In this document: one piece after another, positions 6,392-13,000 of the stretch
Numbering within the stretch: position 1 is the first letter of the stretch
Layout of the letters: the number at the start of each line of letters is the position of its first letter
Assembly: GCA_036172665.1 (NCBI GenBank)
Contig: CM069872.1
Location: 55,786,101 to 55,850,100, forward strand
DNA from: Prosopocoilus inquinatus
Lineage: Eukaryota > Arthropoda > Insecta > Coleoptera > Lucanidae
Direction: 5' to 3'
DNA: 64,000 bases
Made by a program: the position numbers and the translations under genes
The notes under the pieces: model-generated
Databases searched by the model: none
Told to the model about the DNA's origin: nothing
Seen by the model: the letters and a program-made list of their open reading frames with translations, nothing else

Positions 6392-6495
6392 TAGAACGTA
6401 TAAAAGTGAAGCATCTACGTTTCGATTTTTTATTTTTATATTTTATGCTTTTCTACGACACCGCATTAATTAAACTATCTTTAAAGTCTGCTTCG

Positions 6496-6927
6496 TTACC
6501 ACCAATGCATGAGTTCCATGTGCAGATACATCCTCTGTTTGATCCACACGACAATCAAGTAGGTGAAGGTGGTGATGGTGATGAAGTAGAGAAATGCGGA
6601 TAAGACACAGTAAGAGTCGTGCGGGGGGGCACTGCGAGACCTCAAGATTTTATGATCGTTGTTATTCAAGTCTGCGCTATCGTAGCTCTCAACAACGACA
6701 TCATCGTAGAAGTGAGCGTAGGTCTGGGGGTTGTTTGAAGTCGGTTGCTGCGAGCTGTCCGTGTCGTTTTCTAAGTAGAACGTAAGCTTGAAGGGTTCGC
6801 TGTCCATCGGGGGCTTAAGTATGTGTTGATTATTGAGATCAACGGTCATGGCAGCCTGCTGGGGGGGTTTGAGCACAGTCTCCTCCTGAGAGTGTGTGTT
6901 AGAATTGTGAGTAGCGGCGTTTATCAG
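6496..6927 (-). other. In-frame open extension after the slit stop, with a predicted transmembrane segment
   Basis: Exactly in the slit frame, 143 sense codons follow the TGA and end at TAA (6496-6498). The peptide has a polar, acidic N-part with two LKPP motifs, the patches FKLTFYLENDTD and YDDVVVESYDSADL, a basic RSRSAPP, then a hydrophobic stretch of about 23 residues (CVLSAFLYFITITTF and on, coded at about 6541-6609), and a 14-residue tail starting KQR. Codon third positions favour C (TTC, TAC, AAC, ATC, ACC), unlike the AT-rich flanks, so it looks translated. Possible routes are UGA-C readthrough, or splicing from 7093 to an acceptor at 6886 (branch-like ttctaac, then ctctcag), also in frame. 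No homologue is recognised. It could instead be a last exon of a different transcript. Confidence 0.6.
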
Positions 6928-7014
6928 TCAGTAGCACTTCTTCGTGCAAGCGCATTTGCGTACGATATCGATGTCTTTGGTGTAGCGAGTGCCATCGTTA
7001 CAGATTAATCGAAC
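6928..7014 (-). CDS. slit: slit terminal coding exon
   Basis: 87 bp: [20 protein letters not shown], then CACTKKCY and a TGA stop followed by CTG. This is the canonical Slit C-terminus. The same frame stays open for 143 codons beyond the stop. Confidence 0.96.
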   Translation of the reverse strand, partial: VRLICNDGTRYTKDIDIVRKCACTKKCY

Positions 7015-10000
7015 CTGAAAGCACAAAAAAAATTCAAAACGAATTGAAGTTTTCTTGATTCATGAGTTGGATGAACTCTCCCCTCCTCTAACCTTTCGTC
7101 TTTTACTTTTCCTGGCGTGGCAACAACTCGAGCCACAACCTCCGATGCACTTCGCCATCTTCAGTGGCTTCCTCGAGCGACAACCGTTCTCTGAGTAATA
7201 CTCTCGAACCTGTTCCTTACGACAGGTCGGAGCTAAAACAGAGCAGCAGGAATTCAAACCTCTTTAATTTATTTAATGGAAATAAAATGCTTGAAACGAA
7301 GATATACAAAAAAAAATAATGACAAATCTACCATCATGCTTAGTAATGAAAAGTTAGTACCCGTTTCATGGATTACTTACACTCTTCCTCACCTTGCTCA
7401 CAGTATTTTCCCCTAAACCCAGGTCTACACTTGCACATATATTCTCCACCACGCGTGGCTATACACTTACTCTCATGTTTGCAATGGTTATGGACGCAGG
7501 GGTCAGGGGGACTGCTCGGCTCTTCCACCATACCATCCATTTCGTCATCCTGCTCTTCGTCGTCCTTCTCGGGGTCCATCAAAGCACACCCCGGGGTGAC
7601 TTTATGCTGCGTGGCCGCGTTCCCAAAATCAACCTGCTTGTGATTAATCCACACTTCCTTCAAACACCCTGCAATTATTGCTCCGTTAATTACAAGCACA
7701 ATAATAATAATAATTAATTTTTGGGTAGTTCTTGCTCGTGAGAATTGCAGAGAATATGAAACAAATAAAAGAACTTTTTAAAACGAGCTAAAAGAGTAAT
7801 TTATTAACTTACTTAATAAATTACTCTTTTAGCTCGTTCTAAAAAGTTCTTTTATTTGTTTCATATTCTCAGTAATAATTAAATTGTCATGCCTCTAAAA
7901 CTGGTTAAATTTCGAAGATGCCACAACGTGAACGCCTGCTGGCCAGGCTCCGAGGGGATCCCCCCAAGAAACATCGGCGTGCTCAGCCGCAAGTAATCCT
8001 TGGGGCCTTCGTTCACAATCGAACGGGCCAACCCCCTATCCACACGCAAGGTGAAGTTCTTTTTTATTGCGAGCAGCTCGGCTACGTGATACTGTCCATC
8101 TGATACCATCTCGAAACTGCAAGTACGCACGTCTATAATAGGGCAGATAGATTTAAAAAGGGCCTTAAATTAGTACCTGTACATCGTAGAGACCGGTGAG
8201 TTTCCAACATCGTAACTAACCCTGATCCTTCCGTTAAACAACTCGACGGCCAAGTGTTCTTGATGGCCATCGTACATGAGCACCCCGTTTTCTTCAGTCG
8301 TTGCAAACACTATAGTGACATTCGCTTCCGGTTTGGTCACCAAGGGCTCCAGCTCTATGTACGATGTGTTATGCATGTAACTTAGGCTGGTTAGATATTC
8401 ACAACGTTTACCTAGGGGTAGAAAAATTTAATTTTTATTAAGCTTCCTGAACTGAAGGCCGGTTTTCATAATCGAACTAAACGAGACTTTAAAATTAATG
8501 TCACAGTCAGATGTCAAAACAAACGCTAAACCATAGTTATTTACACATTAGATTGTGACTTCTTTTTAATGAAAACGGGCCTGCATGAATAATGAATATA
8601 ATAATAATGGGCATACCGGAGTAACCAGGGGCGCACTTGCAGAGGTAATCGTTGGAACCGGATGGCTGGAAGCAAACCCCGTGCACACAATCGTGGTGCT
8701 GGCACGGTGAGGTTTGGGGGTACAACATGACGGCCATGGGGGTTATCTCGCAGAACTTTCCCGTGTACTCCCCGGTACACTTGCATTCGTAGTCGTTGTT
8801 TCGATCGATGCAGGTGGCCCCATTCTACGCGAAGCGCAATTTATAAGCGGTGAGTGACTTGAAGGGGGCCTCGAACATACCTGGCACATGTGGTTTTCGC
8901 AGTCGTCGATGTTGATGGTGCAGTTCTCCCCCTTGAAGCCGGGCAGGCATTCGCAGGTGTAGTAGCTGTCGTGGTCCACGCACCTCGCGTCATTCTTGCA
9001 GGGGTTGAAGGCGTCGGTGCAGAATTGAATTTTGGTTTCGCAGAATTCGCCTGGGGTTGATTATTCAACGAATTAAAAGTGATGGGTTCGTTTAAATGTC
9101 CCATTACAAAAATTAAAAGCAACAAATTGCGATGAAAGTAGAAAAAAATGTTTTCTTTAGTCATCCCCTCGGGTTTCAAAACCTAGGCGTACTCAACCTG
9201 TTGCCTGAAGAGGTTTCTTATGTTATTATTTATAATTGTATAGCCTGATAAGCCTCAACTTTAATATGAAAGGGGTTCCCACTCATTGGGAAAACCGGGA
9301 AAATTCAGGGAATTGAGAAGAGGATGATGACGCCATGCTACAGGGAAATTGATTAAAAAAAATGGAATTTCTTTTCTAAAATTGGAAAAAAAAACTGAAA
9401 ATTGCTTTAAATATAAGTATAATAATATAACGACTGTGCTAATTTGGTTGCCTACACTAAGACATCCTGTTTTTCGAAAAATTTCATTTTTGTTGCTTTT
9501 TAAACGAACAGACACGTTATTAAAATTAATAGCACATGTGGTTGCCTACACTCAAGGCGGTTAGGAATAAATCTTTGTCGAGAAACTATAAATAAGCTTT
9601 CACAATTATTGACTTAATAGATTTTTTTGACTGCAACCCAGTTATAGAATTGATTCCTTAATAGATTAATTAACTTTCTTCCGAATTTCTTAATGTCTAA
9701 ACAATTTTCCAATTCCTGCTGATTTCAAAAAAATAAAATAAAAGAAAACAGATGCACAAAATCCACTTTCATTTTTAAATATTTCATGTATATTATCGGA
9801 AAAGATTATTTATACATCTTTAAAGATCACACACAATTAATTTTGATAACATGAATAAAGTGCTAGTGCCTAAAAATAAATAAATTCGATTTGCTTGGGC
9901 AGGAGGACTTTATTGGCATAGGCAAACTAATGACTCGGCAGTATGTATGGTTGCCTACACCACAGGTGGTGAAAATAGTATACTCAACCCGCCTGAAAAG

Positions 10001-13000
10001 GTTTTTCATGTTCTTATTTATTATTATAACTGCTATAGCCTGATAAGCCACAGTAATAACGAGAATAGGGTTCGCACTCACAGGAAAAACCGGAGAAAGT
10101 TAGGGAATTGAGAAGAGATCCACGACGCCATGCCACAGCGAAACTAATTACAAAAAACTGTTCTCTAAAATTGGAAAAAAATTGACAATCGCTTTAAATA
10201 TTAAAGAAAAAATTAATCTAGGTGAATTGTGAAAGAGTTTAACACATTTTTAACAAAAAGAAAATAAAATTTTGGAATCTTCACTGTAGGCAACCGCATA
10301 ACGAGTGTGTTAGTTTGGTTGCCTACACTGAGACATCTTGCTTTCTAAAGAATCTCATTTTTTTATTATTTTTTGAACGAGCAGGCACGTTATTAAAATT
10401 AATTGCTTATATGGTTTCCTACATTCAAGGCGGCTACCAATAAATTTTCGTCGAAAACTATAATTTGTCAATCCTAATGCAATTTTAGGTCAAAAAGCGA
10501 TCGTAGGATGTCACTGTTTACGCTATTCATTATAAGAGTAACCTATCATGATTGATTTAATGGATTATGCAACTTTCCTCGCCTAGTTTTAAATGTTTAA
10601 ACAATTTTCCAATACTTTCCGATTGAAAAAAAAATAAAGAATTACAAAAACCGCTTTTATTTTTAAATATTCCATGTATATTAAGGGAGGAAATTATTTA
10701 AGGGTCATAAAAGATCACACACAATTAATTTTAATAACACGAAAGACATGCCAATGCCTAAAAATAAATAAATTAGATCCGTTTCGGCAGAAAGACTTCG
10801 TTTGCATAGGCAAACTGACTAACTCAGCTGCTTGTATGGTTGCCTAAACCACAGGCGCTAAGAATATTTTTTCCTGCCAAGAAACTCAAAAGACCTTCAG
10901 GATTCCTTTTGTTTTTTTTTAATGTTTAAACACAGGCGTGTTATTAAAGTTAATTGCTTAAGGTTTTTAAAGGCAATTCAACGATTCTCTCTCACGACAC
11001 ACGCTATAATAAAAAAAATTCAATAAACCACCAATTTCTTTGCCTTTTGATTATTTCTGTTTGGTTTCGAAATCAAGAAAAAATCGATTAAACGTGTAAA
11101 AATTAAACGCCCCAGTTTTTTTTTTTGATGGGGGAAAACTCCAGGAAAGAAAAAAAATGTATTTTAAATACTGACCCATATATCCTGCGGTGCATTTACA
11201 TTGGTACGCCTGGACTTGATCGATGCAAGTCGCATTGTTCTTGCAGTTATTATTCGCACAGTCATCGATGTTTGTCTCGCAGCGCAGCCCGGTGAATCCC
11301 GGCGAGCATTCGCAGCTGAAATGAGCGATCATCACGAGGGGGTTTAAAATCATTTTAGTACGACGTACCTAAACCTGCCCTCCTCGAGCACCTTGCAAAC
11401 CCCATTCCGACACGGATTCCCGTAGCAGGCGTCGATCATGAACTCGCAGTTCTTCCCGTGATAGCCGGGGGCGCACTTGCACTGGTACTCGCGTTCCGGA
11501 AGGGCAACGCACTTGCCCCCGTTCTTGCAGGGGAAGGTAAAGCAGGCGTCGCACTTGGCCAGGATCTCGTTGCTGATTTTTGCTGGAATTAGAAATTTGA
11601 TGATATAAATAAATAATGACGGTTCAATAAATACTTTTGCAGACGAAACTCGTAGAGGGGGTGGATAGGATCGACTTGTCTTTCATGTTGGAAGGTTCGG
11701 CGCAACGGGCGATGCCCGGCTCGATGTAATCGACTTTAACCCAGTCGCTCAACCAGCGTAAGTTGCAATCACAGTAGAGGGGGTTAGCCCCGAAAGCACT
11801 GTGGGCAGATTATTTTTTTATTATCATCATCATCATCAAGGTATTAAATGCAAGAGCCCAATGCATGAATCAGTCAAGATAGAAATTAGTTTTAAATTCA
11901 GTATCAATCAAACTGCACATAAATCTTTATTAACTAATCGTACAGCGGCGTATAACTGGTTGCCTAACCATTGGTTTTCGCTGAACGTTTCATAGTCTAA
12001 AATCTAATGGCGTTTTCGATTCATTTGTTTGTGGTTAAAACAAGCTGCAAATACTCTGAGTGTAATCAGTGGAGGCGAATCGAAAACGCTATAAATTGAG
12101 TCGACTGGTTTCTGCACTGTGCCCCCTTCCCTCAAGTATGTACATACATGTGAGTAATCGAGGTCAAGTTTGCGAACGTGCCTTCCGGAATCATCGAAAT
12201 CTGATTGCCGTGGAGGGACCTGAGGGGAAGAAAATTCTGTAACTATGTAAGAGTGTATCCGGTGAGGCTTACAGTATCCGGAGTGACTTTAGGCCGTACA
12301 GTGAGCTTTTCTGCATGCACTGGATTTTATTGTAGCTCATGATCAGAGTCGAGAGTTTCGAGAGGGTCGAGAAGGTGAAATTCGAAAGTACTCCGATCTG
12401 GTTGTTGCTTAAATCTCTGGAAACAATTTAGATTAGATTGGATGTGGTTGCAGTGGTGGTGGTGATGGTGGGGACGGGGGGAGGAGGATTTTCGATTCAT
12501 TACTCCACAGACAGCACTCTGAAGGTATCTCCATTCCTTGTTGTTAATTACGTTCAGAAAGAACAGAGGTAAATCTGTGTACTTTACGAACGCACCCCCG
12601 GAGAGTGTTCTAGAGCAAAAAGTCAATTAAAAACATTAATTAACTTACAATCTGGTTAATGATTTGAGATGGCCAAGTCGATCTGCCTGCACCGTTGTGA
12701 TTTCATTTACATCGAGGTATCTGTAAGCAAAAAAGAAATTATTTCGGGGTTCCTTTTGGTTTGGGTTGGTGAGGTCGTACAGTTCTGCTGTTTCTGGGGG
12801 AATCCCCCGCGGAATTTCCTTGAGCTTCGCCCGGGAACACCTCACGAGCGTGCCCGTGCACGTGCACATGGGGGGGCAGTAGTTTTCACCCAGGCATCCC
12901 TGGTCGTTTTCGCCTGAAATTATTTTATTATTCTTTTTATTATCGACGTCGTTTCGTACATTAACAACCAAGGCAATGTTGCAGTAATAGATTGAATAAT

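Follow-up and report, generated by a model that had tools for sequence, protein, structure and literature searches.

Slit proteins, insect slit and vertebrate SLIT1-3 alike, are secreted ligands of Robo receptors, and we know of no Slit that carries a membrane anchor. The slit gene described here raises the question of whether such a Slit may exist in nature. In the window, as we call the whole 64-kb stretch of DNA that was analysed, the slit stop codon is followed by an open, coding-like frame with a predicted membrane helix, whereas the known Slits are secreted. Does this frame code for a protein, and is that protein joined to Slit? If so, how does the cell pass the stop codon that lies between them?

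The main texts and listings that we searched report neither a natural membrane-anchored Slit nor readthrough of slit. The words slit and sli are absent from the main texts of four studies (PMC5100048, PMC3840789, PMC4528330 and PMC8417969), and the word slit from a fifth (PMC7826183). slit may nevertheless already stand on some list of readthrough candidates. PMC6590984 was tried as a source on membrane-bound Slit and set aside; the phrase does not occur in its text.

The slit gene and its stop codon

The minus strand of the window holds an arthropod-type slit gene. On a partial exon map, LRRNT, LRR, EGF and Laminin_G domains lie in separate exons arranged in Slit order, with these Pfam matches:

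slit exon, minus strand: LRRNT, E 1.6e-9
slit exon, minus strand: LRR_8, E 2.4e-7
slit exon, minus strand: EGF, E 4.3e-12
slit exons, minus strand: Laminin_G twice, E 2e-9 and 5.1e-9

A search with one LRR exon matched 49 sequences, headed by human Slit2 (2v9s, 2.2e-14) and then fly Slit (1w8a, 5.2e-11); the remainder are mostly other LRR proteins. With insect slit and vertebrate SLIT1-3 the gene shares LRRNT, LRR, EGF and laminin G domains and a cysteine-rich C-terminus, which here ends in CTKKCY. The last four slit exons join into an uninterrupted frame that is closed by a TGA:

7093..7232, minus strand: next-to-last slit exon, coding for the first half of the cysteine-rich terminus, with a phase 0 donor
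7092, minus strand: first intron base of that donor (AAAG/GTTAGA), phase 0
6931..7014, minus strand: last ordinary slit exon, second half of the cysteine-rich (cystine knot) terminus, 28 residues, phase 0 after 7093-7232
6928..6930, minus strand: first stop codon, TGA, with C as the next base (TAC TGA CTG)

The C-terminus so assembled, spliced in frame, is rich in cysteines and ends in CTKKCY. We call it a cystine knot from its cysteines and its position; Pfam gave no Cys_knot match on this terminus, only Sclerostin at E 0.24. Because fly Slit presumably ends at the same place, the TGA at 6928-6930 looks ancestral and not like a sequencing error. A C-terminal cysteine knot has also been described in cricket Slit, and the available part of that paper mentions no anchor (PMC6040699).

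An open frame beyond the stop

The first-pass annotation had claimed that the slit frame stays open for 143 codons past the TGA. It does: 143 sense codons follow (6927-6499), at the coordinates that had been given and on the minus strand, before a second stop is reached.

6496..6498, minus strand: TAA, the second stop, at which the coding signature breaks off
6429..6434, minus strand: first AATAAA beyond the second stop, 62 nt away

How unusual is such an opening? On the minus strand between 22500 and 60000, which is mostly intron, stop-to-stop gaps of at least 143 codons number 2 of 2119. When the region is shuffled 5000 times by a first-order Markov model, 0.2% of the shuffles leave the frame open. 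Neither AATAAA nor ATTAAA occurs between the two stops. Since the signals that were found lie past the second one, a slit mRNA ending at any of them would include the extension. Coding on the opposite strand was rejected, because the three reverse frames there contain 3, 12 and 13 stops and the best reverse codon score (-0.02, in the frame with 12 stops) falls below the 0.05 of the extension.

Codon use between the two stops

The third codon positions of the extension are as rich in GC as those of the slit exons. By codon position the extension has 46/34/67% GC; the slit exons have 48/42/67%, and the next 432 nt downstream have 33/27/38%. A stricter comparison keeps the peptide fixed, redraws its codons from the extension's own base composition and scores the result against slit codon use. 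The score of the extension is +10.2 and that of the null -22.5 (sd 8.0); not one of 5000 redraws with the same peptide comes as high, and the other two frames score -24 and -49.

In frame 0 the cumulative codon evidence, taken with stops ignored, climbs as far as codon 141, where it stands at 32.2 bits, and falls thereafter, so that the coding signal ends at the second stop. The other frames reach 3.1 bits (codon 30, frame 1) and 4.8 bits (codon 27, frame 2). One of 2966 overlapping windows from 22500-60000, both strands included, matches the full codon score of the extension.

The ends of the slit exons used for training were set by eye and take in some intronic edge codons, for example in exons 7888-8121 and 12768-12908. 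When each exon is trimmed by four codons at either end, 687 codons remain and the main results are unchanged: the synonymous score is +9.9 against -23.3 (sd 8.2; 0 of 5000), and the cumulative maxima are 34.8 bits in frame 0 and 5.0 and 6.3 bits in the others. By codon use in this single genome, there is a coding signature in frame between the first stop and the second.

The signature is not spread evenly, and the extension falls into two parts:

6886..6927, minus strand: first 14 codons past the stop (LINAATHNSNTHSQ), open, with codon use that is not slit-like, ending in the acceptor-like CACACACTCTCAG
6499..6885, minus strand: codons 15-143 (EETVLKPP...MHWW), bearing the coding signature; the tail's synonymous score is best from codon 14

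Coding sequence would score as low as the first 14 codons, or lower, with probabilities of 0.011, 0.041 and 0.038 under three backgrounds when training includes the rest of the extension. The case against them grows somewhat with trimmed slit exons as the only training (0.002, 0.008 and 0.011). Scores this low occur in 1.8% of the 619 overlapping windows held out from slit and in none of 116 windows from elsewhere in the extension. By codon use alone, the coding signal is best taken to start at codon 14, with codons 13-21 and 39 nearly as good. The earlier claim of coding-like codon use in contrast to the flanks is accordingly sound for the extension overall, on the synonymous test and on third-position GC (67% versus 38%), but it fails for the 14 codons next to the TGA, which are without the slit signature.

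A predicted membrane helix at the end of the extension

What would the extension encode? Residues 1-106 are hydrophilic and acidic (6 basic residues, 15 acidic). The features of the predicted peptide are:

6760..6768, minus strand: lone N-glycosylation sequon, NDT, residues 54-56 of the extension
6541..6609, minus strand: predicted membrane-spanning helix CVLSAFLYFITITTFTYLIVVWI, residues 107-129, from hydropathy, dG and AlphaFold2
6499..6540, minus strand: 14-residue tail KQRMYLHMELMHWW, basic beside the helix (KQR)

The best 19-residue Kyte-Doolittle mean is 1.99, equalled by 76 of 20000 shuffled peptides. The estimated insertion energy of the helix is a dG of -2.34, and none of 1000 shuffles is as low; among the controls, glycophorin A gives -2.08 and three soluble pieces of Slit give +4.4 to +5.2. 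From the single sequence, AlphaFold2 predicts one helix at residues 104-142, with block-mean pLDDT of 96-98 over 111-140. Up to residue 100 its confidence is low (block means 44-53), and for the whole extension the mean pLDDT is 61.9 and the pTM 0.31. A terminal hydrophobic run followed by a KQR tail had been picked out in the first-pass annotation, which also proposed a transmembrane prediction; all three measures bear out the run, and the prediction returned a single strong helix at residues 107-129. As modelled, the extension has the pattern of a type I membrane protein, a single hydrophobic helix with a basic flank on what would be the cytosolic side. Such an anchor fits because Slit enters the secretory pathway.

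No known family accounts for the peptide. Pfam gave none above its cut-off; Flp_C (E 0.022) scores 14.6 bits where 25 are required and was taken as chance. NCBIfam returned 0 families, and a comparison with PDB sequences found no match up to E 10. Viral and prokaryote contigs scanned with the extension gave no true relative; two bacterial contig matches were rejected as chance similarities of 12-13 residues around DLNNNDHK.

Possible readthrough of the stop codon

We put the probability that a membrane anchor is encoded here and joined to Slit, by either of the two routes considered below, at roughly 0.75. Between the two, readthrough and alternative splicing, our own rough weighing makes readthrough of TGA-C a tentative first choice, hardly ahead of splicing.

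From the open frame, its codon use and the predicted helix we infer the following course of translation, topology and function. A fraction of ribosomes would pass the TGA-C and translate the 143 codons as a C-terminal extension of Slit. The product would be the whole secreted protein with its cysteine-rich C-terminus intact, followed by a disordered acidic stalk of about 106 residues that could be glycosylated once, one membrane helix and, on the cytosolic side, a short tail. In this way a Slit anchored as a type I membrane protein would be made beside the secreted form.

Readthrough is supported because the frame is open from the stop itself and the coding signal ends at the second stop, because the stop context is TGA-C, and because the cysteine-rich terminus stays whole, unlike that of the splice isoform. 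It is weakened by the poor codon use of the first 14 codons and by the strong in-phase acceptor that lies where the signal begins. TGA-C is to our knowledge the leakiest stop context, and the slit stop, judged by its sequence, appears to be of this leaky type. TGA with a following C is commoner among ancient insect readthrough candidates than in a comparison group, according to the available part of PMC5100048. The sections available of that study and of PMC4528330 describe abundant readthrough as a pancrustacean trait, found in insects and crustaceans, and those of PMC7826183 describe it in bumblebees too; that it is abundant here we assume from the arthropod-like sequence of Slit.

The extension resembles those already described in insects. 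As far as the available parts of PMC5100048, PMC3840789 and PMC4528330 go, these likewise have TGA-C and an in-frame second ORF. Ours is mostly disordered and, like most of them, between 8 and 300 residues long (PMC4528330), and eight Drosophila readthrough extensions are listed with predicted transmembrane segments in the sections available of PMC3840789. There are also two differences: the insect extensions are backed by evolutionary or ribosome evidence, whereas ours is known from the sequence of one genome, and slit here, unlike them, has a candidate splice acceptor just past its stop.

Two special mechanisms were rejected. An RNA structure that stimulates readthrough has nothing to speak for it in the 100 nt past the stop, which fold much as shuffles do (z 0.92; 163 shuffles out of 200 are no less well folded). 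Selenocysteine at the TGA was discarded because Rfam over the window, with 0 of 4227 families at the gathering score, gave no SECIS match; the library used presumably includes the SECIS families.

Possible splicing around the stop codon

Secreted and membrane isoforms of one protein can arise through the choice of an alternative 3' exon or splice site, and in these isoforms, as would be the case here, a changed C-terminus adds a membrane helix. Could splicing reach the extension without any readthrough? This possibility was absent from the first-pass annotation, and we consider it a possible route on much the same tentative footing. It depends on a single site:

6885..6887, minus strand: candidate alternative 3' acceptor CTCTCAG/GAG, AG at 6887-6886, first exon base 6885, phase 0

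The donor after 7093 would join 6885 instead of 7014, dropping the last 28 codons and the stop. The isoform would be a Slit with a truncated cysteine-rich terminus and the same stalk, helix and tail. The site lies 42 nt beyond the stop. Its phase, 0, agrees with that of the donor at 7092, and joining 7093 to 6885 leaves the frame open to the same TAA. A matrix based on 14 slit acceptors gives the site 7.81, above the median of 5.46 for held-out slit acceptors (range -1.6 to 10.4); few other AGs do as well, 37 of 2967 on the minus strand and 31 of 3263 on the plus strand. No AG occurs between the TGA and the candidate acceptor. The codon signal, best from codon 14, is missing in exactly those 14 codons that precede it, although 14 codons are a small sample.

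The cost to the protein would be considerable. The isoform would lose four cysteines (IC, KCAC, KKC) and the ordinary knot probably could not form; in this the predicted junction is unlike those of the known membrane isoforms, for it would cut the terminal cystine knot. Splicing would also make coincidences of the frame match and of the open stretch before the acceptor, together about 1 in 6 by our estimate. Three branch-point-like CTRAY motifs (CTGAC, CTGAT and CTAAC, at 6902-6931) lie upstream of the candidate acceptor and carry little weight: one of 14 slit introns has CTRAY at the same distance, and the branch-point argument was dropped as weak. CTGAC, the first of them, shares bases with the stop codon, and what reads as a TGA-C context might just as well be a branch point.

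A result from mosquitoes also speaks against splicing: of the in-frame second ORFs there, 220 scored high, and 187 were retained as readthrough once exclusions of various sorts, splicing included, had been applied (PMC5100048). The curation described in that study assigns to alternative splicing those cases with a predicted 3' splice site and a non-coding score from the stop to that site, using PhyloCSF and MaxEnt, the latter with a threshold of 4. That rule would tend to file a case like ours as alternative splicing, judged here by the slit-acceptor matrix and codon use in their place. Of the membrane-tethered Slit by readthrough that the first-pass annotation proposed, the codon scores and the helix uphold an extension that continues the slit frame, looks like coding sequence and would anchor Slit in a membrane; readthrough as the route to it stays tentative, given an in-phase acceptor 42 nt on and coding evidence that starts there.

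Less likely readings, with no extension joined to Slit

A non-functional open frame, arisen by chance or left as a relic in a GC-richer 3' UTR, is unlikely. Chance is rare here but not nil, with two gaps of 2119 as long and one window of 2966 reaching the full codon score, and the lack of a Pfam family above its cut-off (Flp_C staying at 14.6 bits against 25) also fits. It would not account for a synonymous score unmatched in 5000 redraws, for a signal that halts at the second stop, or for a single strong helix sited at the C-terminus with a basic flank.

Less probable still is a separate 117-residue tail-anchored protein, unjoined to Slit and made from a downstream or separate transcript: an in-frame ATG is present at codon 27 (MTVDLNN...) and the bulk of the coding signal lies past it (from codon 27 on, the tail scores 12.3 bits), but the tail score is about 2.3 to 2.5 bits higher when codons 15-26 are included (14.6 or 14.8 versus 12.3), which weakly favours coding before the ATG, and both the sharing of the slit frame (1 in 3) and the openness back to the stop would be due to chance.

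What an anchored Slit might do

Flies have been given an anchored Slit by design. In the artificial Drosophila alleles slit-CD8 and slit-GPI, as in the protein predicted here, the whole of Slit is anchored at its C-terminus. According to the available part of the study (PMC7648596), anchoring altered midline repulsion: slit-CD8 kept some repulsion, and slit-GPI looked like a loss of slit for as long as Tolkin was present. The authors read this as increased cleavage, favouring a model in which tethering raises the conversion of full-length Slit to Slit-N by Tolkin.

We rate it slightly better than an even chance that the ordinary slit gene, by readthrough or by splicing, provides here a natural tethered Slit that serves as a contact-range source, from which cleavage frees Slit-N while Slit-C stays anchored. 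Tethering would keep full-length Slit on the cell that produces it. If a Tolkin-like protease cuts it as in flies, Slit-N would be freed and Slit-C would remain in the membrane; by analogy with the fly alleles, a natural anchored Slit may thus be held at the cell when whole and leave Slit-C there when cut. If this is true, evolution has built what fly geneticists engineered as slit-CD8, and the slit gene has a switch of its own between a diffusing and a contact-bound signal. The short-range roles of Slit would then be directly testable by removing the anchor alone.

One further slit intron, 7892-7669, deserves mention. It has an apparent GC donor (AGAG/GCATGA, 7891-7893), a junction demanded by the protein frame. 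Within it, at 7744-7876, lies a 64-nt inverted repeat, 95% complementary with a 5-nt loop, that resembles a short fold-back element.
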